In this document: positions 3,910 through 62,704 of the stretch, one piece after another | How positions within the stretch are numbered: the stretch's first letter is position 1 | Layout: each line of letters opens with the position of its first letter | Source: an uncultured Blautia sp. | GTDB taxonomy: Bacteria; Bacillota; Clostridia; Lachnospirales; Lachnospiraceae | NCBI GenBank assembly: GCA_934408705.1 | Contig: CAKRVL010000003.1 | Coordinates: 1 to 64,000 of the forward strand | Direction of reading: 5' to 3' | Length of the DNA stretch: 64,000 nucleotides | Made by a program: the position numbers and the translations under genes | Notes under the pieces: model-generated | Databases searched by the model: none | What the model saw: only the letters and a program-made list of their open reading frames with translations | What the model was told of the DNA's origin: nothing

Positions 3910-4368
3910 TTAGTCACCATTAAAAAATTTATCTATTTTTCTTTTCCAGTCACCCTTTTGTTTTACATGATCATCTTCTGTTATTTTTACTTCTGTTCTT
4001 CCGGTTTTCTTTACATCCGAAACCGATTTTTCATACTTAAAACCATAGCGATCAATTAAAGCGACTGTAAATGTATCGTATTCATCATACGCATCTGATA
4101 TTTTTATTAATACTGTATTCTCATTTGGATTTTTTCTTTTCTCAATTTCGGTTCCCTCACCAATAGTAACATAAATTTCATTAATAACCTGGTCTGTTGC
4201 GTTGATAATAGTCAGGTAACGGTCATCCTTACTTTTCTCAGCTTTCTCGATGGTTACTTTCTCATCTTTTTTATCAGAAACACGGGGTAGTATTACAAAC
4301 TTTAACAATAAGCCAACTCCCAGAATAATAACAGCCCCACATCCCAGCCATATCCATACTTTTTTCAT
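3910..4368 (-). CDS. Membrane-anchored protein of unknown function
   Basis: 152 residues with one N-terminal transmembrane segment (about 5-27) and a hydrophilic extracytoplasmic part rich in Lys, Glu and Asp. No family was recognised. The central part (about 50-120) looks like a small beta-rich domain. It is preceded by a good ribosome binding site (AAAAGGGAGAGG) and lies 36 bases downstream of another unknown membrane protein, so the two are probably cotranscribed and may act together. Confidence 0.6.
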   Translation of the reverse strand: MKKVWIWLGCGAVIILGVGLLLKFVILPRVSDKKDEKVTIEKAEKSKDDRYLTIINATDQVINEIYVTIGEGTEIEKRKNPNENTVLIKISDAYDEYDTFTVALIDRYGFKYEKSVSDVKKTGRTEVKITEDDHVKQKGDWKRKIDKFFNGD

Positions 4369-5358: not shown

Positions 5359-5393
5359 TTTCTCATTTCTCCTTTGTATTTCAAGCTTGTCCT

Positions 5394-6608
5394 TCAGGCA
5401 TACAGCTTCACAATATTTTTCAGATTCTCCACTGCATAATCCATACCTTCTACCGTAATATGCTCACATGGACCATGGAATGCATATCCACCGGTTCCAA
5501 GGTTCGGGCAGGGAAGTCCCATGAAGGAAAGTCTTGCTCCGTCTGTACCACCACGGATAGCTACAGTCTCCGGATTCAGCCCTGACTGCTGCACAGCCTT
5601 CTTCGCATTGTCGATCAGGTGCATACATGGCTCGATCATCTCTTTCATATTGCGATACTGCTCTTTCATAGTGAGAGTCACAGTACCTTCGCCATATTTT
5701 TCATTGAGGAGCTTGGCAATATGTCTCATCATCTCCTGACGGCAGGCAAACATGGCGCTGTCGTGATCACGGATAATATACTCAAGGCTTGCAGATGACA
5801 CATCACCGCTCATCTCGCAGAGATGGAAAAATCCCTCATACTCTTCTGTATTAGCCGGAGTATCTCCTGATGGCAGCATATTGTTAAATTCCATAGCAAC
5901 CAGAGCTGCATTGATCATGGTATTCTTACTGCTGCCCGGATGTACGGAAAAGCCTTTGATCTTAACTTTGGCACCGGCTGCATTGAAATTCTCATATTCA
6001 ATTTCATTCTCAGCACCGCCATCCACTGTGTATGCAAAATCCGCTCCGAATCCCTCTACATCAAAAAAATCTGCTCCGCAGCCAACTTCTTCATCCGGAG
6101 TAAAACCAATGCATATTTTTCCGTGGGGAATATTTTCTGTAATGATCTGCTCTGCCATAGTCATGATCTCAGCCACACCTGCTTTGTCATCAGCACCAAG
6201 AAGTGTGGTGCCATCTGTAGTGATCAGCGTTCTCCCTTTCAGAGCTGCCAGATGTGGAAAATCCTTCAGTGTAAGGGTATATTCGCTCTCTCCCAGCTTC
6301 ACATCTCCTCCGTCATAATCCGGGATGATCTGGGGATTTACATTTTCTCCTGAGAAATCAGGTGCTGTGTCCATATGTGCAATAAAGCCAAGAGCAGGCT
6401 TATCTTCCAGACCTTTTGTCGCCGGGATCACACCATAGACATAGCATTTATCATCAATGCGCACATCCTGAACTCCTATTTTTTTCAATTCCTCTGCCAG
6501 TTGATTTCCAAGATCAAACTGACGACTTGTGGATGGCACATTCTCCTGCTCATCCTCGCTTGTGGTATAAACCTTTACATAGTCTAATAAACGTTCATAT
6601 GCTCGCAT
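5394..6608 (-). CDS. pepT: Peptidase T (tripeptide aminopeptidase)
   Basis: 404 residues, the normal length for PepT, a cytoplasmic di-zinc M20B exopeptidase that removes the N-terminal residue of tripeptides. The metal-binding and catalytic signatures are in order: AHMDTAPDFSG, GADDKAG, the PDEEVG general-base motif, and the C-terminal RGGTDG and YAFHGPCEH motifs. The ATG follows AAAGGAG. The upstream region carries the stem-loop element described at 6693-6887. Function is peptide use during fermentative growth. Confidence 0.95.
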   Translation of the reverse strand: MRAYERLLDYVKVYTTSEDEQENVPSTSRQFDLGNQLAEELKKIGVQDVRIDDKCYVYGVIPATKGLEDKPALGFIAHMDTAPDFSGENVNPQIIPDYDGGDVKLGESEYTLTLKDFPHLAALKGRTLITTDGTTLLGADDKAGVAEIMTMAEQIITENIPHGKICIGFTPDEEVGCGADFFDVEGFGADFAYTVDGGAENEIEYENFNAAGAKVKIKGFSVHPGSSKNTMINAALVAMEFNNMLPSGDTPANTEEYEGFFHLCEMSGDVSSASLEYIIRDHDSAMFACRQEMMRHIAKLLNEKYGEGTVTLTMKEQYRNMKEMIEPCMHLIDNAKKAVQQSGLNPETVAIRGGTDGARLSFMGLPCPNLGTGGYAFHGPCEHITVEGMDYAVENLKNIVKLYA

Positions 6609-6692
6609 TTTGATTTTCTCCTTTTACCTGCTTATTTTTTCAGATGCCGGGAATTACCGCAGTATCTGATTTTCTTTTTTGACCTTTTGTCT

Positions 6693-6887
6693 CTGGTATC
6701 ATCATATGATGATACCAGCGGATTGTTTCGTGCGTTGCACTCCCACAATCCTACCCAATATTCGCATATCGTGAAGCATACACTCCACTTTTATGCTCAT
6801 ATTGGGGCGGGTTTCAAGGTCATTTTCCCACCTTTGTGCAAGCACAGGTGGGGGAATGACCTTTTTCCCCTGGTATCATCATATGAT
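6693..6887. repeat. Stem-loop cluster bounded by 18-bp direct repeats
   Basis: CTGGTATCATCATATGAT occurs at 6693-6710 and again at 6870-6887. The first copy is half of a perfect 26-bp palindrome (6693-6718). Between the repeats are three consecutive hairpins: GGATTGT/ACAATCC (6720-6751), CCCAATAT/ATATTGGG with an inner GCATA/TATGC (6754-6806), and AAGGTCATT/AATGACCTT with an inner CCCACCT/AGGTGGG (6816-6863). The second repeat touches the hydrogenase stop codon. It could be a small non-autonomous mobile element, a structured RNA, or a set of terminators; nothing in the window decides. Confidence 0.6.
6816..6863. terminator. Strong hairpin after the hydrogenase gene
   Basis: Stem AAGGTCATT/AATGACCTT plus CCCACCT/AGGTGGG. 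The T run (CTTTTTC) lies on the plus-strand side only; on the minus strand, where the hydrogenase is read, no U tract follows. It may therefore work as an mRNA 3' end stabiliser rather than a classical terminator. Confidence 0.45.
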
Positions 6888-6888
6888 T

Positions 6889-8400
6889 TTATAACTCTTC
6901 CAGTCTTTCCAATTCTCCGCCAAATGAAGTATCCATGCATTCCTCAAAAGATGCTTCCTTCTTCATCTTCTCCAGTGCTATCCCAGCTTTCTTTACAGTC
7001 TGCACAGTTCCGGCTCCTGCAATGCAGCCGCCTGGACATGCCATGCCCTCCAGAAGATAACCATTATATTTGCCTGCTTTGGCAGCCATCATCATTTTTT
7101 TACACTCCTGAAGTCCATTAGCACTGACTACCTTCACTTCCCGTTCCGGATCCATACGCTTCACAGCTTTCACAACAGCTGCCGCAACACCGCCACTGGC
7201 AGCGAAGCCTCGGCCGTCACTACTTGCCTGAGTAAGAGGCTCTTCCTCTGGAATACTGGAAAAATCAACATTCTTTGCGTCAAACATACCTTTCACTTCT
7301 TCAAATGTAAGAACAAAATCCACATAGCTTCGAATGGATTTGCGGCTTGCCTCCAGCTTCTTAGCCGCACATGGCCCTACAAAGACAATCTTACATTCCG
7401 GCTCCTGCTGCTTCAGAAGTCTGGCAGTCAATACCATAGGTGTAAGTGCCATAGAAATACAGTTTTCAAACTGGGGGAACATCTTTTTTGCCATTACAGA
7501 CCAGGCAGGGCAGCAGGATGTTCCCATAAATGGGATCTTCTCCGGTACTTCTGCCATGAAATCCTTAGCCTCTTCAATGGTACAAAGGTCTGCACCCACT
7601 GCAACCTCTTTAATGTCAGTAAAGCCAAGTGCCCTGAAAGCTCCGCGAAGCTGGGTATTCTTCAGTTCCGGCTCAAACTGACCTGCCACAGCCGGTGCTA
7701 CAATGGCATAAACCGGCGTATCACTCTTCAATGCCATAATGGTCTGATAGATCTGACCTTTATCCACGATCGCACTGAAAGGACAGCTGACCAGACACAT
7801 TCCACAGGAAACACACTTGTCATAGTCGATTTCAGCTCTGCCATATTCATCAGAATGGATTGCATCCATTCCACAGGCTTTAGCACATGGGCGCTCCTGT
7901 TTAATGATCGCATTATAGGGACATGACTCCAGACATTTTCCACATTTGATACATTTTTCCTGATCGATCACAGAACGGCCATTTTCCATACGGATGGCAT
8001 CCTTCGGACAGACCTCCTGACATGGATGCTCCAGACAGCCCTGGCAGCCCTCCGTGACGATCACCCGCTTCTCTGGACAGGAGTTGCACGCAAATTTAAT
8101 AATATTAATAAGTGGCGGCTCATAATATTTTTCTTCAATTAAACTGGCCTCTACACCCTTGGAAATTGGTGCATGTTCAGAAATATTTCGAAGAGGCAGC
8201 CCCATTGCCACACGCAGTCTCTCCCCTACGATCGCCCTTTCCAGGAAAATACTGTCTCGATATGTGGCAATCTCTCCCGGAAGGATTTTGTATGGAAGAT
8301 CATCCATCTCCTTCTCAATATTGCCTTCATAAGCCAGACGGGCAATTTCAGTAAAAATCTGGTGTCTGATTTTTGTCTTAGATGAGTATAGTCCTCGCAT
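6889..8400 (-). CDS. Group B [FeFe] hydrogenase, monomeric
   Basis: About 503 residues. The N-terminal half has several ferredoxin-type cysteine clusters (around residues 107-133, 150-165, 174-209), and the C-terminal half is the H-cluster domain: L1 TSCCPAW with the proton-relay Cys, L2 GPCAAKKLE (Met-Pro-Cys of group A is Gly-Pro-Cys here) and L3 EGMACPGGC. These features match group B enzymes common in gut fermenters, which evolve hydrogen from reduced ferredoxin. Start chosen at the second Met (8400), which has AAGGAG eight bases upstream. Neighbours are a glycyl radical enzyme and its activase. No HydEFG maturase is in the window. Confidence 0.88.
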   Translation of the reverse strand: MRGLYSSKTKIRHQIFTEIARLAYEGNIEKEMDDLPYKILPGEIATYRDSIFLERAIVGERLRVAMGLPLRNISEHAPISKGVEASLIEEKYYEPPLINIIKFACNSCPEKRVIVTEGCQGCLEHPCQEVCPKDAIRMENGRSVIDQEKCIKCGKCLESCPYNAIIKQERPCAKACGMDAIHSDEYGRAEIDYDKCVSCGMCLVSCPFSAIVDKGQIYQTIMALKSDTPVYAIVAPAVAGQFEPELKNTQLRGAFRALGFTDIKEVAVGADLCTIEEAKDFMAEVPEKIPFMGTSCCPAWSVMAKKMFPQFENCISMALTPMVLTARLLKQQEPECKIVFVGPCAAKKLEASRKSIRSYVDFVLTFEEVKGMFDAKNVDFSSIPEEEPLTQASSDGRGFAASGGVAAAVVKAVKRMDPEREVKVVSANGLQECKKMMMAAKAGKYNGYLLEGMACPGGCIAGAGTVQTVKKAGIALEKMKKEASFEECMDTSFGGELERLEEL

Positions 8401-8772: not shown

Positions 8773-9564
8773 TCATCCACCGATCTGACAATCCAGATCA
8801 CAGACTGTATGCACTGCCTTTTTCAGCATTTCCATATGCTCCGGTTCCGGTGGGAGTATCTCTGGAAGCTTATACTCTCTTCCGAGCCAATCGTACTTAT
8901 CCTGCCCCAGACGGTGATATGGAAGAAGATGGATCTTCTTCACACCAGGTAAGGTAGAGGCAAAAGCCGCAATAGACTTAATTTCTTCTACGCTGTCATT
9001 AAACGTAGGAATAACCGGAACACGGATCACCAGATTCGTCATTCCGGATAAAGCTACTTTTCTGGCATTTTCAAGAGCCAGATCATTGGGCTTACCTGTA
9101 AATTTCTTATGCTTCTCCTGATTTGTATGCTTGATATCCATCAGATAAGTATCCAGATATGGCAATACCATCTCAATATTTTTCCAGGGAACACAGGCCA
9201 TACTCTCAATAGCTGTATTAATGCCACGCTCCTTGGCTGCACGAAGAAGATCACGGGAAAACTCTGGCTGACAGAGACATTCTCCGCCGGAGAGTGTCAT
9301 ACCGCCGCCGGAGCGATAATAATATGGGCGGTCCTTCTCCACCAGCTCTATCATCTCCCGGACTGTTACGTCACGTCCTATAGTTTTCACACCATCTGGA
9401 GTTTTCATTGTCTGAATCTTATATTCCTGGGATTCCGGATTACAGCACCACTGACATCTGAGCACACAGCCCTTCAAAAATACAATGGTACGAATTCCGG
9501 GACCATCGTGGATGGAATAACGCTGGACGTCAAAAATACGTCCTGTAGTATCTAAATATTCCAT
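8773..9564 (-). CDS. Glycyl radical enzyme activating enzyme (radical SAM, PflA-like)
   Basis: About 263 residues. The radical SAM motif is CVLRCQWC, preceded by the activase signature YSIHDGPGIRT; GGGMTLSGGE is the SAM-binding glycine motif. It should cleave S-adenosylmethionine to place the glycyl radical on the adjacent enzyme. The frame could begin at 9612, but the ATG at 9564 has TGGAG six bases upstream and gives the usual start. It lacks the extra ferredoxin insert with additional cysteines found in glycerol dehydratase activases, so the protein is PflA-sized although its partner looks like a dehydratase. Confidence 0.88.
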   Translation of the reverse strand: MEYLDTTGRIFDVQRYSIHDGPGIRTIVFLKGCVLRCQWCCNPESQEYKIQTMKTPDGVKTIGRDVTVREMIELVEKDRPYYYRSGGGMTLSGGECLCQPEFSRDLLRAAKERGINTAIESMACVPWKNIEMVLPYLDTYLMDIKHTNQEKHKKFTGKPNDLALENARKVALSGMTNLVIRVPVIPTFNDSVEEIKSIAAFASTLPGVKKIHLLPYHRLGQDKYDWLGREYKLPEILPPEPEHMEMLKKAVHTVCDLDCQIGG

Positions 9565-16388: not shown

Positions 16389-17255
16389 ATGAAAAAGAAC
16401 AAGCTGAAAACTATTCTTGCCACCTTATGTCTGTCGTGCATGCTTCTGACAGGCACTCATTCCATCCAGGCCGAAGCCACCACCAGCACTCCCCAGACTA
16501 CAGTTCCTGCCACAGAGAACACCGGTGCTCCTCAGTCTCCTGTTCCTGCTAACGCGAACACCTGGAAGACCAGGAAAGGATATCACTACTATTACAACGC
16601 TCAGGGACGAAAGGTCACAGGCAAAGTTAAGATTGGCTCCCGCTACTATTTCTTCGACAAAAAAGGAATTCAGCGTTATGGATGGAAAAAAATCAAAAAC
16701 AACTACTACTTTTTCCGCATCAGCACCGGCACAACCGGAGCTTATATGCTGACCTCTACCAAGGTAAACGGAATTTCCCTGAATTCCTCCGGACGCGCCA
16801 GTAAATCCGGTTCTAATGTACGCAAGCTTCAGCTGATGACAGAAGCTAACAAAATTGTGGAAAAGATCACCAAGCCTGGCATGAACAAGACACAGCGTCT
16901 CCGTGCCTGCTTCGACTATGTTAAGAAGCATTATCCATATTTCACCTGGCGTCAGTTCAGAAATACCTCCGACTGGGAGAAGGATTTTGCAGAGGATATG
17001 TTTATAAGAGGACGGGGAGACTGTATTTCCTACGCTTCAGCCTTTGCTTATCTGGCTAATGCCGTAGGTATGAAAAAGATATATGCCGTTTGTTCCGGCG
17101 GACATGGCTGGGCAGAGATCAATGGCAAGGTCTACGATCCTGACTGGGCACTGGTAAGCAATGTAGATTCCTATTTTGCCATGCCTTACAGCCTCAGTGG
17201 TGTAAACGGACGCCCTATGTACAAGGGAAACAGGCTTTATGTAAAAAAAATCTGA
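16389..17255 (+). CDS. Secreted transglutaminase-like protein with wall-binding repeats
   Basis: 288 residues. A signal peptide (about 1-29, ending near IQAEA) is followed by a Thr/Pro-rich linker, two or three aromatic repeats of the choline/cell-wall-binding type (YHYYYNAQGRKVTG, YYFFDKKG, YYFF; about 64-112), and a C-terminal transglutaminase-like core with Cys212 (GRGDCISYASAF), His239 (GGHGWAEI) and Asp250 (YDPDW). Such proteins act at the cell surface as proteases or crosslinkers. It is the only plus-strand gene between 1 and 37,700. AGGAGG lies just upstream of the ATG. Confidence 0.85.
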   Translation: MKKNKLKTILATLCLSCMLLTGTHSIQAEATTSTPQTTVPATENTGAPQSPVPANANTWKTRKGYHYYYNAQGRKVTGKVKIGSRYYFFDKKGIQRYGWKKIKNNYYFFRISTGTTGAYMLTSTKVNGISLNSSGRASKSGSNVRKLQLMTEANKIVEKITKPGMNKTQRLRACFDYVKKHYPYFTWRQFRNTSDWEKDFAEDMFIRGRGDCISYASAFAYLANAVGMKKIYAVCSGGHGWAEINGKVYDPDWALVSNVDSYFAMPYSLSGVNGRPMYKGNRLYVKKI

Positions 17256-24282: not shown

Positions 24283-25893
24283 TTATAAAAATTTCTGTTT
24301 TTTTACCATTTGCACAAATTCTGCATTATTAGATGTGCGGGCAAACATGTTCAGAATCTGCTCAACAGCCTCATCGGACTTCATTCCGTTAAGGGCTTTT
24401 CGCATAATATAAACAGCTTCCTGCTCATCTTTGCTAAGCAGCAGATCCTCCCGTCTGGTGCCTGATTTCTGGATATCAATAGCCGGGAAGACCCTCTTCT
24501 CCTGCAATTTACGGTCAAGCACAAGCTCCATGTTACCGGTACCCTTGAACTCCTCGTAAATAACATCGTCCATCTTGCTTCCGGTATCAACCAGTGCAGT
24601 AGCAAGGATAGTGAGACTGCCTCCTTCACGCATATTACGCGCAGCACCAAAGAAGCGCTTCGGCATATGAAGAGCCCCCGGATCAAGACCACCAGACAAG
24701 GTTCTTCCGCTTGGCGGTACTACCAGGTTATATGCTCTCGCCAGTCTGGTAATAGAATCCAGAAGGATCACAACATCCTGCTTATGTTCTACAAGGCGGC
24801 GTGCACGCTCCACAACCATCTCAGATACACGCTTATGATGCTCCGGAAGCTCATCAAATGTAGAGTAGATAACCTCCACATTCGGTCCCTGTATTGCTTC
24901 CTTAATATCAGTAACCTCCTCAGGACGCTCGTCAATAAGAAGGATGATCAGATGCATATCTCTATTATTCTTAAGGATAGACTTCGCCACATCCTTAAGA
25001 AGTGTAGTCTTACCTGCCTTAGGCGGGGAAACGATCATACCACGCTGTCCCTTTCCGATAGGACTGATCAGATCCACTATACGCATGGCTGTAGTACCAC
25101 CAGGGCGCTCCATGATCAGACGCTCATCAGGAAATATAGGAGTCATATTCTCAAAGCTATATCTCTTCTGACCTTCGCTTGGATGGAAACCATTAATAGA
25201 TGTCACATACAAAAGAGCGCTAAACTTCTCTCCCTGGGTTTTAATACGGATATTTCCCTGGACTATATCACCTGTTTTCAGATTGAATCTGCGGATCTGT
25301 GACGGAGAAACATAGATATCATTCTCTCCCGGAAGGTAATTCTCACTTCGGATAAATCCAAAGCCGTCCGGCATAACCTCCAGAATACCATTGGCCTTCT
25401 CTCCACTGTCAAGCTGTATGGCTTCAGCAGAAACATTATAAGGATTGCCGGAATCATCTGCCTGATTGGCGTTCTCATTAGCTGTGCGGGGCTGTTCCTG
25501 CACTTCTGCCTTAAGCTCAGCAGGCGGAACTACTTCAACAGCTTTGGCAGCAGTGGTACGCTTCACATAATTCTCCTGTCTGTTCTCGCCATTGTAGCTG
25601 CCCTGACGTCCGGTATTCTCATTTCTGCTGTAATTACTGCGGTATTCCGGATTCCGTCTAACAATCGTGCGTGATTTTACAGATGTGGTATCCGACTTCT
25701 CATTCTCTGATGCAGCAGCAGGCTCCTGCTTCTCAGAAGACACCTGTACCGTATCTGCTGCTTCCTTCTTATCCTCTTCTAACATACGTTCAATTAATTC
25801 AGGCTTTCTCATGGTAGAAATGCCCTTCAGTCCTCTGGCTTTAGCTAAATCCTTCAACGTAGCCAAGGATAAAGATTCATATTTTTCTCTCAT
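24283..25893 (-). CDS. rho: Transcription termination factor Rho
   Basis: 536 residues, longer than the approximately 420 of Escherichia coli because of an Asn/Arg/Glu-rich insertion (about 40-165) between the Rho_N helices and the cold-shock RNA-binding domain ([20 protein letters not shown]). The ATPase part has Walker [10 protein letters not shown], Walker [11 protein letters not shown] and the Q/R-loop region up to the C-terminal GTRREDLL motif. Such low-complexity insertions are known in Clostridia Rho proteins and can drive condensation. The ATG at 25893 has AGAGG nine bases upstream. Confidence 0.96.
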
Positions 25894-26024
25894 CAATCAT
25901 CTACCTCTTCGACTAATATTGTTCTGAAACATATTTCATTTTGATTTACCGGGATACAAATGTCTGATTAGACAGAAGCTATATATTGAATAAAAAACGT
26001 GTTCAAAAAAATCTATCAAGTTTA

Positions 26025-26201: not shown

Positions 26202-26235
26202 TAACAACAAACACCCGGAGATATTCCTCCGGGTG
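26202..26235 (-). terminator. Terminator of the PPEP-like gene
   Basis: CACCCGGAG/CTCCGGGTG nine-pair stem followed by TTTGTTGTT on the minus strand. Confidence 0.8.
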
Positions 26236-26252
26236 CCGGTCATCTGAATAAT

Positions 26253-27242
26253 TTAACTCCAATACGGTCCATAAACCTTCTGAATCTTAGCAATCTGTGA
26301 ATCTGTTATCTGAGCGAGTGCATTCTGAACAGCTGCATATGTCTGCGGTCTGGAGCTCTTCAGAGAAGCATTGTTCAGGATATAATCCTTAACAGATTCT
26401 GCGAAATACTCCGAAGAATTCTGTGTTACATAAGCCTTATTGAAGGATGTAACATTTCCTTTCTCTGCTGCAAAAATGCTCTGGAAGCTTGCTGTTTTAT
26501 CTGTATTTCCAACGATAAATGCAAGGAAATGACCCAGCTCATGGTAAATGGAATCGTCAACCTGCTTCATTGTTATGGATCTTGTCTGCGCTGCAAAATA
26601 TCCGGAATAGTTAACAGATGGATCAACAACAACCTTAAAGCCTAACTGCTGGAATGCAGCGAGAACATGATTGTCCATTTTACCTGCGATAGAAGCTACA
26701 TTGGCTTCATATTTAGTCTGATTCTTAACAGAAGTAGTATCGGAAGCTGTAGTGCTTGCAGCATTCACACTGGCAACTGAAACCTGCTGTGTAGTTGTAA
26801 CCTGAACTGTAGTTGTAACCTTGGAAGTAACCAGTTTCTTCTTGGACTTCTTAGTGTATTTCTCAGTAGAATTGGTAACAACAGTCTTCTTGGTGTCAAC
26901 AGTTGTATTGCCGGATTTCTTAGTAGAATTGGTAACCTTGGTCTTCGGTTTCAGCTTTCTGGTGTAACTCTTCTTAGCTGCTTTTTTTAATTTAACTGTT
27001 TTCTTAGTTGTTTTAGTCTTGGATGTGGTCTTCACTGTAGTCTTCGGCTGAGAAGCTAATGGTGTCTCTTCCTCCGGAATAGATGCTTCCATGATCGGAT
27101 CTGTGTAGCTTGGGAATTCCGGCACATCACCTGAGCCTGAAAATAAGGATACACCGCCAATCACTACAGCAAGTGCAATAGCAGCACAGCTGGAAACAAC
27201 CTTCTTATTAGCGAACCACTCTGTAAGTTTCTTTCCTTTCAT
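26253..27242 (-). CDS. Secreted zinc metallopeptidase, PPEP/lethal-factor-like
   Basis: 329 residues. A membrane anchor or signal segment (about 16-36) is followed by a Lys/Thr-rich low-complexity linker (about 66-170) and a C-terminal domain (about 180-315) with HELGH (234-238), Tyr271 and Glu278 in SSEYFAES. From memory of Clostridioides difficile Pro-Pro endopeptidase PPEP-1 (Zmp1), the zinc glutamate follows the transition-state tyrosine by seven residues, as here, and the C-terminal PQTY..QN..A stretch also matches. It is likely a surface protease that cuts adhesins or matrix proteins. The gene is preceded by its own promoter, a c-di-GMP-I riboswitch and a terminator. Actual Pro-Pro specificity is not shown. 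Confidence 0.82.
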   Translation of the reverse strand: MKGKKLTEWFANKKVVSSCAAIALAVVIGGVSLFSGSGDVPEFPSYTDPIMEASIPEEETPLASQPKTTVKTTSKTKTTKKTVKLKKAAKKSYTRKLKPKTKVTNSTKKSGNTTVDTKKTVVTNSTEKYTKKSKKKLVTSKVTTTVQVTTTQQVSVASVNAASTTASDTTSVKNQTKYEANVASIAGKMDNHVLAAFQQLGFKVVVDPSVNYSGYFAAQTRSITMKQVDDSIYHELGHFLAFIVGNTDKTASFQSIFAAEKGNVTSFNKAYVTQNSSEYFAESVKDYILNNASLKSSRPQTYAAVQNALAQITDSQIAKIQKVYGPYWS

Positions 27243-27327
27243 ATATACACACCTCTCTTGAACGGTGATGAACCTGACCTGCCGCTATCCGGAAATCATC
27301 TGCATCTTCTAAAGTAACAATATTACA

Positions 27328-27361
27328 CAAAAAAACCGTTTATCCAAATAAATAAACGGTC
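27328..27361 (-). terminator. Riboswitch expression-platform terminator
   Basis: ACCGTTTAT/ATAAACGGT stem with loop TTATTTGG and a seven-T tract on the minus strand, placed between the c-di-GMP aptamer and the metallopeptidase start. Confidence 0.85.
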
Positions 27362-27409
27362 GCCACAAATAGAAGACTTCTGTCTCCTGTCATATCACAT
27401 AATCAATCT

Positions 27410-27492
27410 CAATGCGGCAACCGGCTGTCATAGTCAGCTGACCTTAGACCCTTGGCTTTGCGTCCCTGCCTTTCGACAGGTTTGCCTTTAAT
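27410..27492 (-). promoter_or_regulatory. c-di-GMP-I (GEMM-I) riboswitch aptamer
   Basis: On the minus strand the conserved GEMM-I blocks appear in order: AAAGGCAAACC, a short P1b stem closed by a GAAA tetraloop (CTGTCGAAAGGCAG), GGGACGCAAAGCC, GGGTCTAAGG, and the closing GCCGGTTGCC. This aptamer binds cyclic di-GMP. A terminator at 27328-27361 provides a transcriptional expression platform. The region between (27362-27409) can hold the antiterminator. Direction of control (on or off) cannot be read securely; the C. difficile zmp1 riboswitch turns expression off. Confidence 0.93.
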
Positions 27493-27501
27493 TACCCTTC
27501 T

Positions 27502-27530
27502 ATAATAGTGCAAAACACAACCATTGTCAA
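27502..27530 (-). promoter_or_regulatory. Promoter of the riboswitch-metallopeptidase unit
   Basis: TTGACA (27525-27530), 17 bases, TATTAT (27502-27507) on the minus strand, directly upstream of the aptamer. Confidence 0.85.
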
Positions 27531-27684: not shown

Positions 27685-28716
27685 TTACAGTTTGCGCGTA
27701 GACTCCCGTTCTATAAGCCTTCCTGCCAGCATTTGCCGTTTAACCACCTTTTTCCGGTCAATCATATCAAACAAAGTACGAATACTCTGCTGTGCAGTTT
27801 CCACTCTGGGATATTCCAAAGTGGTAATAGATGGATTATAATATTCTGCAATATCCTGTCCATCAGCCCCTGCCACGCAATAATCCTCCGGTACTCTTTT
27901 ACCGCTGTCAATGATTGCTTTGCAGGCTCCTACAGCCAAAGTATCTGAAATAGCATAAATACAGGTAAAATTCACTCCTGATTTCAAAAGCTCACAAGTA
28001 CTGTTATAACCATTCTCAATCGTATAGATTCTTTTACCTGGTTTTAAACGGACTATAAGCTTCTCATCATACTCCAGTCCATTTTTCTCCATTGACCTTT
28101 TATAGCCATTCAGATGGCACCTTCCCAGACCTTCATCTCCTGAAGTAATAAAGGCGATCCTTTTATGTCCGCAGCCGCACAGATAATCAACCATACTCTG
28201 GCTCTCAATCTCTGTATCACTCGTCACAAGGGCACTTTTAGGATAAGTTCCTGTATCCTCCGGAACTGTTTTTCCGGAACCACTGATCACATACGGAACT
28301 CTCAGCATTCTCAGCCTTGACTCGTCATAATCATACATACCGCCAAGAAATATGATTCCTTTGACTTTTTTCTCTTTTTCCAGCTGAAGGGCAAGCTCAA
28401 CTTCATCTTCATCATCTGCTACATTCTGCAATACCAGGCAATATTTCCTGTCACGGACTTCCCGCTCCAATACATGCAGCATAACACCCCAGTATGAGTT
28501 GCTGATTTCTTTTACTATAACTGCGATCGTATTGGAATCAGCTCTTTTCAGATTTCTGGCACTGTTATTCGGCACATAATTATACTCTTTTATAATATCC
28601 AGAATCTTCTGTTTCGTCTCAGGATTAATGTCCGGATGATTGTTAATGGCCCTGGACACTGTGCTGACTCCTACGCCACACAATTTCGCAACCTCTTTAA
28701 TTGTTATCTGCTCCAT
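27685..28716 (-). CDS. LacI-family transcriptional regulator
   Basis: 343 residues from the ATG at 28716 (GGAGGG five bases upstream; a longer frame to 28731 lacks a site). The N-terminal helix-turn-helix ITIKEVAKLCGVGVSTVSRAINN is typical, with a hinge near 45-60 and a periplasmic-binding-like sugar domain after it. It is the last gene of the sugar locus and probably binds the three tandem 12-bp operator units in front of the ABC binding-protein gene. The ligand is probably the imported sugar or a derived acid. Confidence 0.9.
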   Translation of the reverse strand: MEQITIKEVAKLCGVGVSTVSRAINNHPDINPETKQKILDIIKEYNYVPNNSARNLKRADSNTIAVIVKEISNSYWGVMLHVLEREVRDRKYCLVLQNVADDEDEVELALQLEKEKKVKGIIFLGGMYDYDESRLRMLRVPYVISGSGKTVPEDTGTYPKSALVTSDTEIESQSMVDYLCGCGHKRIAFITSGDEGLGRCHLNGYKRSMEKNGLEYDEKLIVRLKPGKRIYTIENGYNSTCELLKSGVNFTCIYAISDTLAVGACKAIIDSGKRVPEDYCVAGADGQDIAEYYNPSITTLEYPRVETAQQSIRTLFDMIDRKKVVKRQMLAGRLIERESTRKL

Positions 28717-28808
28717 AACTGCCCTCCTCACGCAACAATGTGTTCATTATATATGTCCTGGCATATTATGGCAAACGATTTTCAATAAAATTTATAAAAA
28801 ATTATTTA

Positions 28809-39461: not shown

Positions 39462-39494
39462 TACAGCCCTTTTTACAGAAAGGATTACTTGATT

Positions 39495-40538
39495 ATGATT
39501 ACCAGTTTAAACAATAGGGAGCTGTTCCAGTTTTTCCAGCAGTTTTCCATTATATTACGTTCCGGAATGTCCGCTGTAGAAGGACTTTCCATATTAAACG
39601 ACGACAGCCAGACTCAAAGGGGCAATGAGATTCTGTCAGCGCTTTCCAAAGATATGGAGGAATCTGGCTCTCTGGCTCATGCCATGAAGGAAACCGGTGC
39701 ATTTCCAGATACTGCCACAGCTTATGTCCGCACCGGTGAAGAAACCGGCTGCCTGGATGAAGTCATGACCGGGCTTGCCAGCTTTTACCAAAAAGAGCTC
39801 CAGATCTCCCAGCAGATCCGAAGTGCTGTTACTTATCCTCTTGTAATGCTTGGCATGATGATAGCTGTGATCGCCATCCTGCTGGTTAAGGTGCTTCCTG
39901 TATTCCGTCAGGTATTTCGCCAGCTGGGACTTGAGATGAATGGGATCTCAGGTGCCCTTCTGGGAATAGGAGAAGCTCTTGGCAGCTACTCCACTGTATT
40001 TCTTATCCTCCTGGCGGCGATCATCGGCTTTCTTTTTTTCCTGGCCATCCATCCCAGAGGACAGAAACTGGTTCAGAAAATGGTCTATCATTTCCCGGGA
40101 ATGAAAGAAATCCCTGTAAATCTGGATTACAGCCGCCTTTGTCAGTGTATTTCCATGGGAATCCGAAGCGGACTTTCCCCTGAGCTTTACATAGAGCTGG
40201 CAGAAACTGTTGTTTCCCAGCCTGAAATAAAGGAAAAGCTTACAGACCTTCAGAAGCAGCTTTCCGAAGGCTTTGGCCTTACAGAAGCAATTGCCTGTTC
40301 CGGACTTTTTAAGGCAATGGAGCTTCGCCTGATCTCTCTTGGTATTCATGCAGGCTCTTCCGACGAGGTTATGGAGAAGCTTTCCTCACAGTATGAGGAG
40401 CAATCTGTGGGAACCATTTCACATATTGTTTCTATTCTGGAGCCAACTATCGTCATCGTCCTTTCCCTGCTTGTGGGACTGATCCTGCTTTCTGTTATGA
40501 TGCCGCTGCTTGGTCTGCTTTCAGAAATGATTGCCTGA
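39495..40538 (+). CDS. Type II secretion/type IV pilus inner-membrane platform protein (GspF/PilC-like)
   Basis: About 347 residues with two T2SSF domains, each a cytoplasmic helical bundle followed by membrane helices (near 108-132, 155-178 and 313-340). The signature GLSILNDDSQ..RGNEILSALS and RTGEETGCLDE early in the protein are typical. It forms the membrane platform that couples pilin subunits to the ATPase. The ATG at 39495 has AAAGGA ten bases upstream; a TTG at 39489 is an alternative start. Confidence 0.9.
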   Translation: MITSLNNRELFQFFQQFSIILRSGMSAVEGLSILNDDSQTQRGNEILSALSKDMEESGSLAHAMKETGAFPDTATAYVRTGEETGCLDEVMTGLASFYQKELQISQQIRSAVTYPLVMLGMMIAVIAILLVKVLPVFRQVFRQLGLEMNGISGALLGIGEALGSYSTVFLILLAAIIGFLFFLAIHPRGQKLVQKMVYHFPGMKEIPVNLDYSRLCQCISMGIRSGLSPELYIELAETVVSQPEIKEKLTDLQKQLSEGFGLTEAIACSGLFKAMELRLISLGIHAGSSDEVMEKLSSQYEEQSVGTISHIVSILEPTIVIVLSLLVGLILLSVMMPLLGLLSEMIA

Positions 40539-40554
40539 TAAGGGAGAGATTCAC

Positions 40555-40905
40555 ATGGATATATTCGAAACCAGAAGAACACAGATCAGACGTTTTATCC
40601 GTCATCTGTTTCCCATAATATTTACACTGCTCTTATGTACTCTTTTCTATATTGGAATTGTCCATACACAGACCAATTCCCTGGAAAAAGAACAAATCAC
40701 CTTAACCAGGGCTCTTGAGGGCGGTGCCATAAGAACCTACGCACTCACCGGCAGATATCCTCAAAGTCTTTCGGAGCTTCTTTCTGATTACCACATCACC
40801 TATGATAATGAAAAATTTGTGGTGGAATATGTACCAAACGGCTCCAATCTTCTGCCATCCATAAGTGTATTCCCTTTAAAAGCTAAAAAAGGAGGGGCAC
40901 GATGA
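40555..40905 (+). CDS. Small single-span filament-operon protein
   Basis: 116 residues from the ATG at 40555 (AAGGGAGAG upstream). A transmembrane helix (about 20-41) is followed by a short extracytoplasmic domain with GGAIRTYALTGRYPQSLSEL, which resembles the region after the helix in type II pseudopilins (a Tyr-Pro turn and helix). No typical prepilin peptidase site is seen. I read it as a minor pilin-like or assembly component; the family is not certain. It overlaps the next gene by four bases. Confidence 0.65.
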   Translation: MDIFETRRTQIRRFIRHLFPIIFTLLLCTLFYIGIVHTQTNSLEKEQITLTRALEGGAIRTYALTGRYPQSLSELLSDYHITYDNEKFVVEYVPNGSNLLPSISVFPLKAKKGGAR

Positions 40906-41402
40906 ACAGCAGATTTTCCCAAAAGCATAATATTGATTCTCTGGCTGTGCTGCTCCTTTTCGCTATGTATGTGCTGTTTCTGCTGTTTCTGCTGCTTTTT
41001 GGTGCCGGCAATTACCGGGCCTCAGTAAAGAGCCTGGATACTAACAATAATCTCTACACAGCAGCATCCTATATCGCGACCAAATTCCGCCAGCATGACC
41101 AGCCAGGTACCACCTCTGTAACAGAATTCCAGGGCTGTACCGCAATCTGTTTCCAGGAGGACATTGAAGGCAAAGCCTATTCAACCTATATTTATTTTGA
41201 TCACGGGCACCTGAAAGAGCTTTTCACTGCTGCCGGTTCCCAGGCGGATATTTCTATGGGAACACAGCTTGCAGAGCTTTCGGATTTTCGTGCAGAAGCT
41301 GTGGAAGACAGCTTTTACCAGATCACACTAACTGATACAGACGGACATATCTCCCGTCTTTTACTTCACCCCGGAGTTCCATCTGAACACAGTTATTCCT
41401 GA
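40902..41402 (+). CDS. DUF4860 protein
   Basis: 166 residues. A transmembrane helix (about 12-35) precedes a beta-rich domain with NNLYTAASYIATKFRQHD, the hallmark region of DUF4860 proteins, which I recall from Lachnospiraceae type IV filament operons. Function is unknown. It starts within the previous stop (ATGA) and is followed fourteen bases later by a pilin-like gene, so it belongs to the same transcript. Confidence 0.75.
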   Translation: MNSRFSQKHNIDSLAVLLLFAMYVLFLLFLLLFGAGNYRASVKSLDTNNNLYTAASYIATKFRQHDQPGTTSVTEFQGCTAICFQEDIEGKAYSTYIYFDHGHLKELFTAAGSQADISMGTQLAELSDFRAEAVEDSFYQITLTDTDGHISRLLLHPGVPSEHSYS

Positions 41403-41416
41403 AAGGACTTTTTCTC

Positions 41417-41872
41417 ATGAAAAATATTACTACACATTCAAAATCCGGACTTTTTCTAATGGAAATGATATTTGTTCTTCTCTTTCTGGGACTGACCTGT
41501 GGAATCTGTGTCCGCCTCTTCGCAGCCTCCTACACAGCCCGCCAAAAGGCGCGGGAAGCTGATCATATCCAGGAGCTTATCACTAACACAGGTGAAATCC
41601 TGGAAGGAACCGATGGCACTGCCAAAAGCTTTCTGGCTTTAATGCCGGACGGAAGCATCACTGATGGCGGAAATGTTTGTTATTATTTTGACAAAAAATG
41701 GAAAGCAGTTTCCCAGGAAAACAGCACCTATAAAATGGACGTAGTCCTCTCACATAATGATACCTGCAAAAGTGCCCAAATCCGGATTTCCGGTGCAAAT
41801 GGGGAAGAAACTATTTACACTCAGACCATTCGTTTTCCCTTTTCCCAGGCAACAAAGGAGGACGCTTCATGA
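41417..41872 (+). CDS. Type IV prepilin-like protein
   Basis: 151 residues. The N-terminus has a short basic leader ending in Gly, then LFLMEMIFVLLFLGL, which matches a class III prepilin signal with Glu at position +5 after the Gly cleavage site. The hydrophobic helix is followed by a globular domain with a possible disulfide (Cys pairs near 92 and 117). It probably is a filament subunit processed by a prepilin peptidase encoded elsewhere. It overlaps the next gene by four bases. Confidence 0.72.
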   Translation: MKNITTHSKSGLFLMEMIFVLLFLGLTCGICVRLFAASYTARQKAREADHIQELITNTGEILEGTDGTAKSFLALMPDGSITDGGNVCYYFDKKWKAVSQENSTYKMDVVLSHNDTCKSAQIRISGANGEETIYTQTIRFPFSQATKEDAS

Positions 41873-42363
41873 ATGAGAAGAACAATCTTTTTTCCGCAAC
41901 CGGAATTCCTTCACTTTTCCTGATATTTGCAGTGCTTATGCTGGTTATCCTGTCCCTGCTGGGATATGGGACTTCCCGTCAGGATTTACAGTCCAGCACC
42001 CTTTCCCTTAAGCAGACTACCGATTATTACAATGCCTGCACCCAGGCCACAGACTTTTATTCAGAAACAGTTCAGACACTGAAGGAATTTCAGCTTCAGG
42101 CAGTAACAGAAGCCGAATACTATCAGATGGCAGCCCGCTGCTTCGAGCAGACCGGGGATACCGTCTGGGATCCTGATACCCATACTGTCCAGTACATAAA
42201 AGAATTTTCGGATACCCAGAGTCTTGTGGTGAAAATTGCAGTTTCATGGTATAATGCAGATATGAACGCCAGCAACAGTCCTGCCAGGATTCTTTCCTGG
42301 AATACCATGGTTACTGCTGACTGGAAGCCTGACAACAGTCAGCCGGTCTACAAAGGAGAATAA
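41869..42363 (+). CDS. Filament-operon protein with one membrane span (PilX-like position)
   Basis: 164 residues with an N-terminal hydrophobic segment (about 13-33) and a soluble domain of mixed helix and strand. No family recognised. Its location between a prepilin-like gene and the PilT-like ATPase, the size and the single N-terminal helix suggest a minor filament component. It starts by ATGA overlap with the preceding gene, and its stop is four bases before the ATPase start codon. Confidence 0.62.
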   Translation: MNEKNNLFSATGIPSLFLIFAVLMLVILSLLGYGTSRQDLQSSTLSLKQTTDYYNACTQATDFYSETVQTLKEFQLQAVTEAEYYQMAARCFEQTGDTVWDPDTHTVQYIKEFSDTQSLVVKIAVSWYNADMNASNSPARILSWNTMVTADWKPDNSQPVYKGE

Positions 42364-42367
42364 CTTT

Positions 42368-43438
42368 ATGGAAGAAAAAGTAAGAGCATTTCTGGCGCTT
42401 GCTACCGCGAAAAAAGCCTCTGACATTTTTATCATCGCAGGCCGTCCTCTTTCTGTAAAAATCGATGGAAAGCTTTGTATCCTGGAGGGCTTTGAAGAAC
42501 GCCTTATGCCTCCTGAAACTAACGAATTCATCCAGATTATTTATAAAATGGCTAATAACCGTAATATCCAGCCAATGCTGGAAACCGGAGACGACGACTT
42601 TTCCATGGCAATTCCCGGACTTTCCAGGTTTCGTGTAAATACATACCGGCAGCGTGGCTCTCTGGCTGCGGTCATCCGGATCATTGCATTCCGGCTGCCA
42701 GATCCCAGGGATCTGCACATTCCGGATGCGGTTATGGAAGCTGCAGATCTTACCAAAGGTATGGTTCTGATCACAGGTCCTGCGGGAAGCGGAAAGTCTA
42801 CCACCATGGCCTGCATTATTGACCGGATCAACCACAGCCGTGAAGGACATATTATTACCCTGGAGGATCCTCTGGAGTATCTGCACCACCATGACAAGTG
42901 TATCGTCAGCCAGCGTGAGATCTGTACAGATACAGCCAATTACCTGGTTTCACTGCGGGCTACCCTGCGCCAGAGTCCTGATGTGATCCTTCTCGGGGAA
43001 ATGCGAGATCACGAAACCATCCAGACGGCAATGACAGCCGCAGAAACCGGACATCTGATTCTTTCCAGCCTTCATACCACAGGAGCTGCTAATACTATCA
43101 GTCGTATTATGGATGTTTTTGAACCAAACCAGCAGCATCAGATTGCGATCCAGCTTTCCATGGTTCTGCAGACTGTTATTTCCCAGCAGCTGGTACCGGA
43201 TGTAAACGGACACAATATTCCGGTCTTTGAGATCATGCGGCTTACCCCTGCTATCCGGAATATGATCCGTGACAACAAAATTTATCAGATTGACGGTGTG
43301 ATCTCTTCTTCTGCCCAGGCAGATATGCGTTCCATGGATAACAGTCTCCTGGAGCTTTACCGCAATGGTCAGATCACCAGAGAGACTGCGCTGAAATACT
43401 CTTCCAATCCGGAAATGTTAAAACGGAAGCTCCTGTAA
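42368..43438 (+). CDS. pilT: PilT-like type IV pilus ATPase
   Basis: 356 residues, PilT length. Walker A GPAGSGKST (137-145), the Asp box (ITLEDPLEY), Walker B (VILLGEMRD), and the His box (GHLILSSLHTT) are intact. The C-terminal AIRNMIRDNK is close to the AIRNLIRE motif that marks retraction ATPases of the PilT group. No PilB-like extension ATPase is in the operon. The stop codon lies inside the terminator stem at 43422-43453. Confidence 0.88.
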   Translation: MEEKVRAFLALATAKKASDIFIIAGRPLSVKIDGKLCILEGFEERLMPPETNEFIQIIYKMANNRNIQPMLETGDDDFSMAIPGLSRFRVNTYRQRGSLAAVIRIIAFRLPDPRDLHIPDAVMEAADLTKGMVLITGPAGSGKSTTMACIIDRINHSREGHIITLEDPLEYLHHHDKCIVSQREICTDTANYLVSLRATLRQSPDVILLGEMRDHETIQTAMTAAETGHLILSSLHTTGAANTISRIMDVFEPNQQHQIAIQLSMVLQTVISQQLVPDVNGHNIPVFEIMRLTPAIRNMIRDNKIYQIDGVISSSAQADMRSMDNSLLELYRNGQITRETALKYSSNPEMLKRKLL

Positions 43439-43474: not shown

Positions 43475-46051
43475 TCACTTTCTCAACACAGACGCAGATG
43501 CTTTATATTTGCTTTTCACCACGCCTGAAGGCTCTTTCACATAAGCGCGCACATAATAGCGGTATTTGGTTCCTTTTTTCACCTTGCGGTCTGTCCAGGA
43601 TGAGGTTTTCCCCTTCTTAATGGTAGCTGCCAGCTTGTATTTCCCGCTTCCCGTCTTCCTGTAAATATAGTAGCCATCGCATTTCTTCTGTGCCTTCCAC
43701 TTCACTCTCAGACCTTTCTTTACATTGCACACAGAAGAAATCGTCTGCCTGCCAGGTGCTGACTTATATTTTCCACCGGACTTATAGCTGCTTGCAACAG
43801 TCTTTCCATTCACAGTACAATATGCTCTTACTGTATACTCATACACTGTGGATGTGCTGATTTTTTTATCCTTATAGGAGGTTACTGCTGGTTTCTTTAT
43901 AGTAGCAAGCCTGTTCCACTTGCCGGAGGCTGTCTTACGATAAACCACATAACCGGCTGCTCCGGAAATTTTATTCCAGGTCACTGTATTATAGCCGCTT
44001 GAAGAAACCTTAACAGACACAGATGGTGTGGAAAGTGCGGTCTTCACTGTAACAGCATCTGTATAATCTGAGTATTTCGGGGTACCATTTACCATGCTGT
44101 ATACACGGAGCCTGTAGGCGTAGGTAATACCAGGCTGAACCTTGGTATCTGTCCAGGAATCTGAGGACCAGGACAGAGTTGCCATCTTCTGGTATTCACC
44201 ACCGGAGGCCTTTCTGTAAATCTGATACCCGGTAACTCCAGATACCTTATTCCAGGTAAGCCCCACCTGATCATACCCTTTAGCTGCAGCCTGAAGAGAC
44301 GCTGGCTTCTCTACACTTATATCGCTGCTAAGAGTTCTGGTATGTGCCTTGATCCTGGCGCATGCCTTGGAGCTTGTCTGGGAAAAATCACTCCATCCGT
44401 TATTCTCATGATAACAAAAGCTCTGTTTCTCCCTTAATCCGGCATAAAACTCTACCCAGTCATATGCACTGTCTGTCTCACACAGATATTCTACCGTACC
44501 AGATCCGATATTGGTAATTACCACAGAATATAAGGTTCCGCTCATCAGGTTAACCTCCGGCACCTGAACTGTGGAGATTCCTGCATGCTCCTGGTAAAAT
44601 GTCACCGGCGAGCTGTACGCAGGCGTTCCGCTTACCGGATTGCCCGGATCAGTCAGATTCGTATAAATCTGAATACTGTAGCTTCCTCCATCCGTATAGG
44701 TAGCAAGAACCACCTCGCCCAATGCTTCACCTTTTCCCCCTCCTGCTTTTGCCTGAAAAACATTGGCAACAGAAGAAATTCCTCCATTTCCTGAAGGATA
44801 CAGCTTCAGCTTGCTAAGCGCACTGGAGCCATCATAAAAATAATTATTATAATATTGGGGACTTGTAATAGCTTCTGCTGCTACAAGATTATAATTTCCC
44901 TTATTCTCGTAGGAGATATAAAAATATCCATTATCTCCCCAGTCTTCTCCCCAGCTGTTTCTGGCTATCCAGGCCCCATCTGAGGTGACTTCGCTGGCTG
45001 CATTAAAATTATCCCTGGAATAATTATCATCCCAGCCAACCAGAGTAATGGCATGATTTACACTCGTTCCCCTGGGATAGCTATAAGCACAGGTATAAGG
45101 ATTATAATAAATGTCATACATTCCAAAGGACATGGAAACTGAGCCATATTCCGAAATCAGATTCTTAATATTACTTACAGAATAGGAAGAAAACGCTGCA
45201 TTCTCCAGGTATGCGGCAGTCGTATATGCCATCCCGGAGGCCGGAACATTATCTGAATCCAGAGTATGATCTGCATTTGTCTCATATGGGACCTGCGATT
45301 CCAGTGCCATACCGCTCCAGGTACTTAGGAAAATTGCTGCCAGAGTCTGGTTTCCACCTTCTCTGTAGGAATGAAGAACTACATTCCTGTCACTGGCTGT
45401 GTTTCCAAGAGGATCATTCTGCCGGTTGGCAAAGAAATATGCCAGATGCTCTTCGGACAGATCAAACACTCCTGCTCCAGCTCTCAAAAATGATATTTCC
45501 AGATTCGATGCCAGTGTATATGCCCAGCACATATTAGAAGGCTTCTGATTCCTTACCGGTATGGAAAGGCTGCCTCTCGGATCATATTTCGCAGGATAGG
45601 AGGCCGCTCTTGCAGCGCCCACACTTCCTGTATCACCGTTTCCATTTCCGGATGGAGGATCCACATAGCTTATGGACTGCAGCTCCCTGATCGGCTCCAG
45701 CTGCGCCTGAATCTCCTCTTCACTAAGGGAAGCCTCATCATCAGCAGCCTCATCCTGTAAGGGATCCGGATCCCCGGGGTCCAGACTGCCAAATCCAGCA
45801 GACTGATCCTGGATTTCTTCCGGACTGCCATCAGAAAAACCATCTGGCTCATCAGTCTCCCCATCTGTCATATCCACAATCCCGTTCTCATTTGTTTCAC
45901 CATCTGAATCAGCGAACTCCGCTTCTGCCTCAAAGCCTTCCACATCAGCAGCGCTTACAGGCTGAACAGGCAATTGGGTAAAAATCAATGACTGGGCAAT
46001 CAGCACGCTTGCAATGCCTTTTTTTATTAATTTTCTATATTTCATATTCAT
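43475..46051 (-). CDS. Secreted papain-like (C1) protease with C-terminal FN3-like repeats
   Basis: 858 residues. A signal peptide (about 1-35, ending near VSAAD) is followed by an Asp/Glu-rich linker (35-125), a C1A peptidase domain with Gln169 and Cys175 (NQKPSNMCWAY), His (VNHAITLVGWDD) and Asn (ARNSWGEDWG), a beta-rich domain, and three fibronectin-type modules from about residue 590 (GYQIYRKASG, GYVVYRKTASG, GYYIYRKTGSG). The C-terminus is very basic, possibly wall-binding. No sortase motif. The ATG overlaps the hisC stop (ATGA), with only a weak binding site, so it seems coupled to hisC. Confidence 0.87.
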   Translation of the reverse strand: MNMKYRKLIKKGIASVLIAQSLIFTQLPVQPVSAADVEGFEAEAEFADSDGETNENGIVDMTDGETDEPDGFSDGSPEEIQDQSAGFGSLDPGDPDPLQDEAADDEASLSEEEIQAQLEPIRELQSISYVDPPSGNGNGDTGSVGAARAASYPAKYDPRGSLSIPVRNQKPSNMCWAYTLASNLEISFLRAGAGVFDLSEEHLAYFFANRQNDPLGNTASDRNVVLHSYREGGNQTLAAIFLSTWSGMALESQVPYETNADHTLDSDNVPASGMAYTTAAYLENAAFSSYSVSNIKNLISEYGSVSMSFGMYDIYYNPYTCAYSYPRGTSVNHAITLVGWDDNYSRDNFNAASEVTSDGAWIARNSWGEDWGDNGYFYISYENKGNYNLVAAEAITSPQYYNNYFYDGSSALSKLKLYPSGNGGISSVANVFQAKAGGGKGEALGEVVLATYTDGGSYSIQIYTNLTDPGNPVSGTPAYSSPVTFYQEHAGISTVQVPEVNLMSGTLYSVVITNIGSGTVEYLCETDSAYDWVEFYAGLREKQSFCYHENNGWSDFSQTSSKACARIKAHTRTLSSDISVEKPASLQAAAKGYDQVGLTWNKVSGVTGYQIYRKASGGEYQKMATLSWSSDSWTDTKVQPGITYAYRLRVYSMVNGTPKYSDYTDAVTVKTALSTPSVSVKVSSSGYNTVTWNKISGAAGYVVYRKTASGKWNRLATIKKPAVTSYKDKKISTSTVYEYTVRAYCTVNGKTVASSYKSGGKYKSAPGRQTISSVCNVKKGLRVKWKAQKKCDGYYIYRKTGSGKYKLAATIKKGKTSSWTDRKVKKGTKYRYYVRAYVKEPSGVVKSKYKASASVLRK

Positions 46052-55345: not shown

Positions 55346-55438
55346 CTTTTATGACTTGTCCTGTTCCATGCATTTCTCTTTATCTAACTAAAGTTTTACT
55401 ACTTTTTTTAGAAAAATGCAATACAGTATTTGTATATA

Positions 55439-62587: not shown

Positions 62588-62704
62588 ATTCCCTCCGTTT
62601 TGCAGCGTATGCATACTCAAAATATATTTATCTTTAATTTACGCCAACCTGTTTTAAATAATTCCTCAGCCTTTTTATTAGATTGTAAAGTGTTCAAATA
62701 CCCG

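Follow-up and report, generated by a model that had tools for sequence, protein, structure and literature searches.

A candidate c-di-GMP OFF riboswitch ahead of the gene for a putatively surface-tethered ATLF-fold metallopeptidase in an uncultured Blautia

Introduction

The Pro-Pro endopeptidase (PPEP) PPEP-1 of C. difficile and its two surface substrates have been described (PMC6366702), and class I riboswitches for cyclic di-guanosine monophosphate (c-di-GMP) that occur in this species, including the one that governs ppep-1, are reported to act as OFF switches (PMC11477304). We describe a comparable arrangement in a 64,000-nucleotide stretch of DNA from an uncultured Blautia sp. (contig CAKRVL010000003.1; hereafter the window, whose positions we use throughout), where a c-di-GMP-I riboswitch stands ahead of a minus-strand gene for a predicted zinc peptidase. 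We consider it likely that the riboswitch acts OFF by terminating transcription and that the one gene under its control specifies an ATLF-fold metallopeptidase that is exported and probably tethered to the cell surface.

For PPEP-1 and PPEP-2 the substrate gene adjoins the protease gene (PMC12828418); a second PPEP-1 substrate is encoded away from the protease, and PPEP-3 is also without a neighbouring substrate gene (PMC10413326). In these enzymes an S-loop precedes the edge strand, with Lys101 and Trp103 in PPEP-1 and Arg111 and Tyr113 in PPEP-3. The loop closes upon substrate binding and bonds the tandem Glu184-185 (Glu196-197 in PPEP-3), and a diverting loop shapes the cleft (PMC12828418). 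The literature that we searched held little on c-di-GMP in Blautia and did not bring Blautia together with a Pro-Pro endopeptidase; where Blautia, c-di-GMP and riboswitch co-occurred, the mention of Blautia concerned another switch, and two papers name Blautia alongside c-di-GMP and type IV pili.

An original prediction, made from the letters alone, had placed a PPEP/Zmp1-like secreted protease under a c-di-GMP-I riboswitch at 26253-27530, and its coordinates proved correct. Computation finds at this locus an aptamer, an intrinsic terminator and a competing antiterminator and, in the encoded protein, the ATLF fold, its catalytic residues and a cationic linker. Known families suggest that c-di-GMP is the ligand, that the switch would act OFF in vivo and that the peptidase is probably exported; its substrate and any role in surface release we infer only indirectly.

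A full-length c-di-GMP-I aptamer precedes the gene

The RNA at 27413..27496 (-) matches the Rfam family RF01051 with 81.2 bits against a gathering threshold of 35 (E 2.1e-14 for the 64-kb window), and the alignment runs the full length of the model, positions 1-87 of 87. The covariance match confirms, at the level of sequence, a full-length c-di-GMP-I (GEMM-I) riboswitch, the class that had been predicted. A G occupies the specificity position (G20 of Vc2), which we take to fit c-di-GMP rather than cyclic AMP-GMP (cGAMP) as the ligand; PMC9481103 speaks of a variant position for c-AMP-GMP.

Directly before helix P1 of the aptamer lies a sigma-70-type promoter, TTGACA-17 nt-TATTAT, at 27502..27530 (-), with 11 of 12 consensus matches, in keeping with the consensus promoter originally noted. 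A scan of 1.6 kb gave 4 promoter-like sites, of which this one (27530..27502 as transcribed) is the best. Because shuffled sequence averages 3.4 such sites, the promoter is weak proof when taken alone, and its weight comes from its position. From the promoter spacing, transcription is expected to start at about 27496-27494, the first bases of P1.

The leader can form competing terminator and antiterminator folds

We folded the 172-nt leader, and also growing prefixes of it sampled every 8 nt from 75 nt. In one fold, P1 is closed by pairing between the first seven transcript bases, GGUAAUU (27490..27496 (-)), and GGUUGCC, and downstream an intrinsic terminator (27329..27361 (-)) can form, with a 12-bp stem, a 4-nt loop and a U tract (stem-loop 27361..27334, -11.6 kcal/mol). 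In the other fold, the 3' arm of P1, extended to GGUUGCCGCA (27413..27422 (-)), becomes the 5' arm of an antiterminator; this switching strand pairs with UGUGGCGACC (27358..27367 (-)) and thereby ties up the foot of the terminator stem, which the last bases of UGUGGCGACC would otherwise form. Stripped of its basal pairs, the terminator hairpin is worth about -4.6 kcal/mol, compared with -11.6 when complete.

A further G at 27357 makes the eleventh antiterminator pair. The resulting duplex scores -20.5 kcal/mol. When the downstream stretch was dinucleotide-shuffled 2000 times, no duplex was as strong (mean -8.2, standard deviation 2.1), evidence that comes from one sequence and in which covariation plays no part. 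Terminator-like sites number 3 in the scanned stretch against 1.3 in shuffles. Among the folded prefixes, those of 83-131 nt contain P1, those of 139, 147 and 155 nt contain the antiterminator, and those of 163 and 171 nt contain P1 together with the terminator. These folds bear out the transcription-terminating architecture of the original prediction.

In the c-di-GMP-I class, the ligand stabilizes P1. Because the antiterminator shares the 3' arm of P1, a P1 held by the ligand would leave the terminator free, and the riboswitch is therefore expected to act OFF: on computed folds and by analogy, c-di-GMP would halt transcription of the protease gene and low c-di-GMP would permit it. The parallel drawn earlier with C. 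difficile ppep-1 would then hold for the direction of the switch as well as for its class (PMC11477304).

The gene encodes a predicted zinc peptidase with an N-terminal hydrophobic segment

The gene, at 26253..27242 (-) in the list of open reading frames (ORFs), encodes 329 amino acids and is preceded by a ribosome-binding-like GAGAGG (27252..27257 (-)) 9 nt 5' of its ATG. The product scores 38.7 bits with Pfam ATLF (PF07737), where the cut-off is 27.4; the match covers residues 126-303 from profile position 19, although its first ~50 residues fall in a Lys/Thr linker and may be spurious. The catalytic domain itself, as bounded by an AlphaFold2 model and structure comparison, comprises residues 175-329 (26256..26720 (-)). 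The model of residues 166-329 has a predicted local distance difference test (pLDDT) score of 93.8 and overlays on lethal factor and PPEP structures.

We aligned the window protein with 49 relatives of identity down to 40%. The zinc-binding and catalytic motif HELGH (residues 234-238; 26529..26543 (-)), Tyr271 (26430..26432 (-)), the counterpart of the PPEP-1 oxyanion Tyr178, and Glu278 (26409..26411 (-)), the third zinc ligand and counterpart of PPEP-1 Glu185, are identical in all 50 sequences. From His238 to Tyr271 there are 33 positions and from Tyr271 to Glu278 there are 7, compared with 32 and 7 in PPEP-1, where we counted from His146 (inferred from the catalytic Glu143), Tyr178 and Glu184-185. 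HExxH with a downstream Tyr and Glu at matching spacing recurs in 242 of 250 fetched proteins. On profile, motif and model, the product is a predicted zinc peptidase of the ATLF (lethal factor/PPEP) fold.

The highest 19-residue Kyte-Doolittle mean (2.3) falls at residues 15-33 (27144..27200 (-)), a hydrophobic segment that could be a signal anchor or a signal peptide; after residue 60 the maximum is 0.92. This single hydrophobic segment has, as judged by eye, no evident signal-peptidase site. It is followed by an acidic stretch (residues 36-62, net -7) and then by the Lys/Thr-rich cationic linker (residues 63-175; 26718..27056 (-)), which contains 27 Lys and 30 Thr and has a net charge of +25. 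From this layout it is plausible that the protease stays attached to the cell. In a full-length structure model that is otherwise poor, the linker (26718-27056) is mostly long beta strands, with block means of 69-85 over residues 71-150. The earlier description of a secreted-type zinc peptidase with HELGH, Tyr and Glu at PPEP-1-like spacing, a PPEP/lethal-factor fold and a Lys/Thr-rich stalk agrees with these results, export being predicted from the N-terminal segment.

Relatives are found in Blautia and other Lachnospiraceae

Three protein searches returned many relatives: of 813 candidates in the first search, 767 reached E <= 0.001 (best 120 listed); the others gave 66 matches among 77 candidates with the domain alone, and 1363 proteins at E <= 0.01 among 6378 candidates in the third search (best 120 listed). 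Among the matches listed, source names include Blautia, Lachnospiraceae and Lacrimispora, and the named Blautia faecis, B. obeum and Blautia sp. MSJ-9 fit the Lachnospiraceae host that had been proposed; one relative, P0001, is 98% identical to the window protein.

The same plan of hydrophobic N-terminus, acidic stretch, cationic linker and domain appears in P0188, P0190, P0193 and P0223 at 40-43% identity. Among the fetched proteins, 184 have 200 or more residues ahead of HELGH, and in these the Lys plus Thr fraction from residue 40 to the domain ranges from 0.30 (P0187) to 0.52; P0187 carries Ig-like Big_2 domains in the region ahead of its catalytic domain. Cleavable-looking signal peptides were seen by eye in P0164 and in P0135, the latter having no long cationic linker.

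Genome-contig scans with six 8-residue words of the window protein, and with two words from its N-terminus and linker, gave no encoding locus, which is weak evidence on distribution because the protein searches gave many relatives. Plasmid and phage tblastn gave no match, and neither did a viral-contig scan with the GEMM-I DNA pattern. A fold search of a viral library had no match at E <= 0.001, the best (1.3e-3) being a phage protein named Lethal factor. Viral-contig scans with the protein or motif found nothing except, in one scan, a phage locus (L009, positions 5266-6726 of a 217-kb IMG/VR contig). There a 486-residue protein has an internal ATLF-like domain that is 33% identical and retains HELGH, Tyr and Glu; it reads as having a tail-tape-measure-like end, and neither a Pfam match nor an Rfam riboswitch was found there.

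Surroundings of the unit and other riboswitches

The candidate single-gene unit sits on the minus strand between a gene for Rho (24283-25896, identity read from its sequence) and a LacI-family regulator gene (27685-28731); a sugar ABC transporter is also among its neighbours. A terminator with a 12-pair stem, 7 of them G-C, follows the protease gene at 26210..26237 (-) and suggests a transcript of one gene only.

Three Rfam matches reach the gathering threshold in the window: the GEMM-I aptamer, a Clostridiales-1 RNA (6710-6878 (-), 139 bits) and a T-box leader (55127-55377 (-), 110.9 bits). A type IV pilus/type II secretion-like cluster (T2SSF, T2SSE/PilT-like) lies at 39489-43438; it gave no c-di-GMP riboswitch match even at E 1, and we dropped the idea that such a switch controls it. 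At 16389-17255 the window also encodes a protein that combines choline-binding repeats with a transglutaminase-like core, and at 43475-46051 a large cysteine protease of the papain family that bears fn3 and GH85_C domains; by eye, both proteins have a signal-peptide-like start. A subtilisin with a Csp prodomain (Pfam CspB_prodomain and Peptidase_S8) is encoded at 60749-62620. Subtilisins with this prodomain are known from spore germination.

Elsewhere, an Agathobacter rectalis plasmid (NZ_CP143948.1) carries c-di-GMP-I riboswitches at 4854-4945, 7178-7269 and 9236-9327 (-), with 57-59 bits. The genes that follow them are small and belong to a type VII secretion cluster (Imm59 immunity, WXG100 target, hypothetical), an arrangement that suggests, from sequence, that c-di-GMP controls type VII secretion in this Lachnospiraceae plasmid. 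A Ruminococcus albus plasmid (NC_014824.1) has one at 3994-4076 (70.7 bits), preceding two genes annotated as hypothetical protein and ATP-binding protein, and a second at 269767-269848.

Discussion

We regard as most likely a mechanism in which a c-di-GMP OFF switch governs a surface-tethered metallopeptidase, which would remodel its own cell's surface as c-di-GMP falls. At high c-di-GMP, in the sessile state, the aptamer would close P1, the terminator would form and the protease gene would be silent; as c-di-GMP falls, the 3' arm of P1 would pair with the base of the terminator and full mRNA would be made. The protease domain would then stand outside the membrane at the end of its cationic linker, where it would most likely trim surface proteins of its own cell and so alter adhesion. 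Our good confidence covers the switch and the exported peptidase; self-trimming we regard as roughly an even call, and the first two alternatives below contest only this trimming or the specificity.

Several results weigh against this mechanism. The whole-leader energies of the P1 and antiterminator states are nearly the same (-51.6 and -51.3 kcal/mol), so the direction of the switch rests on architecture and analogy. No GGDEF motif was found in non-overlapping window ORFs of at least 100 amino acids, phosphodiesterase motifs lying outside that scan, and since only 64 kb were covered, c-di-GMP turnover in the strain is assumed. The full-length structure model has a mean pLDDT of 49. CD1597, a PPEP homologue with an intact HExxH, showed no activity (PMC11460543), so an intact motif is no proof of activity. 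The pattern ..PP.P is present in five window ORFs of at least 100 amino acids, some of them overlapping frames unlikely to be genic, and by eye none of those with a PPxP motif shows an evident signal for export. Finally, the domain has 62 residues before HExxH, by length arithmetic ~34 fewer than the 96 of PPEP-1, and it has no glutamate tandem; Glu278 is preceded by Ser in 42 of the 50 aligned sequences and by Ala in the other 8.

These last departures bear on the alternative that the protein is a true PPEP, cutting Pro-Pro bonds in LPXTG-type adhesins encoded elsewhere, as PPEP-1 does. Fold, catalytic residues and riboswitch class agree with it, and Val272 stands at the position of PPEP-2 Val175 in the S2' pocket. 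From the first His of HExxH onward, lengths are near equal (77 residues in the window domain, 79 in PPEP-1), and the structural alignment pairs model positions 7-145 with PPEP-1 46-220. Yet the shortfall before HExxH is consistent with the lack of an S-loop: counterparts of Trp103/Tyr113 and Lys101/Arg111 could not be placed in the window domain, and 240 of 242 proteins have no Trp within 70 residues N-terminal to HELGH. In five scanned relatives (P0223, P0188, P0187, P0164, P0147), Pfam matches begin only at 102-115 of the 193 positions of the ATLF profile, so that its first half is unmatched; the match of the window protein, in contrast, starts at 19. Part of the role of Trp103/Tyr113 might be taken over by Tyr212, which is near-invariant (48 of 50) and lies close to the invariant Gly214 of the edge strand. 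Joint loss of the S-loop and the Glu latch seems a coherent picture, in which the catalytic domain would be a reduced variant. With the S-loop apparently absent, specificity probably differs from that of PPEP-1. We therefore class the protein as an ATLF-fold peptidase that may work like a PPEP, and not as a Pro-Pro endopeptidase. No Pro-Pro surface substrate, adjacent or under an inverse switch, was seen within 64 kb, a negative made weak by the precedent of PPEP-3. On balance, a true PPEP is unlikely.

We judge it similarly improbable that an exported protease is made at low c-di-GMP for some other job, on nutrient peptides, a host matrix or mucin glycoprotein, or other bacteria. The neighbours, Rho, a LacI regulator and a sugar ABC transporter, include no substrate and would suit such a role, as would relatives like P0135, with its cleavable-looking signal peptide, and P0187, with its Ig-like domains. 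The cationic linker and hydrophobic N-terminus shared by the window protein and P0188, P0190, P0193 and P0223, however, suggest action near the producing cell. That the riboswitch controls a pseudoprotease or a binding protein, for which CD1597 offers a precedent (PMC11460543), is very improbable given that HELGH, Tyr271 and Glu278 are unvarying in the alignment. An ON switch, in which c-di-GMP promotes read-through, can draw on the near-equal energies of the two states, but it is the least likely reading of all, since a ligand-stabilized P1 withholds its 3' arm from the antiterminator and frees the terminator, and OFF is the direction of the class I switches of C. difficile (PMC11477304).

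The original prediction is thus partly supported: it was right on the RNA and the fold and plausible on function; likeness to PPEP/Zmp1 stands in fold and active-site residues, whereas identity as a Pro-Pro endopeptidase was put too strongly for a shorter domain without the Glu tandem. The conserved surface-release switch that it suggested stays a hypothesis. If the OFF switch on a surface-tethered peptidase is true, the locus is a direct, testable output of c-di-GMP on a commensal's cell surface, and it suggests that the design of a protease under GEMM-I, known from a pathogen, is not confined to pathogens. Since the catalytic family seems to be without the S-loop, it is also a natural test of that loop's role. 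More tentatively, and with less confidence than we give to self-trimming, we propose that in the gut, Blautia and related Lachnospiraceae possess surface-tethered "mini-ATLF" proteases as a distinct and widespread class, built of an anchor, an acidic segment, a cationic Lys/Thr linker and a ~155-residue catalytic domain without S-loop. In this lineage the class would be OFF-switched by c-di-GMP and would give a commensal its equivalent of the detachment switch of C. difficile, with a new cleavage specificity.

Among known systems, the catalytic domain of lethal factor, the namesake of ATLF, is ~17% identical to the window domain. We saw none of what we take to be its delivery parts; the shared fold says nothing on toxicity, and nothing suggests a toxin. 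The PPEP-domain family is said, going by the title of van Leeuwen 2021, to include secreted and membrane-anchored proteins, so anchoring by itself is not new. CD1597 of C. difficile likewise has a PPEP-like domain behind an N-terminal region, but unlike the window protein it is without an export signal, and it was inactive in assays (PMC11460543). As for PPEP-2 (Paenibacillus alvei) and PPEP-3 (Geobacillus thermodenitrificans), Tyr113/Arg111 of the PPEP-3 S-loop and its Glu196-Glu197 are unmatched in the window protein. From PPEP-1 (Zmp1/CD2830) the window protein differs in its N-terminal hydrophobic segment with the cationic linker behind it, in being ~34 residues shorter before HExxH, and in having neither a Glu-Glu tandem nor an adjacent Pro-Pro substrate gene; like PPEP-1, the window protease lies under a class I switch whose computed direction is OFF.
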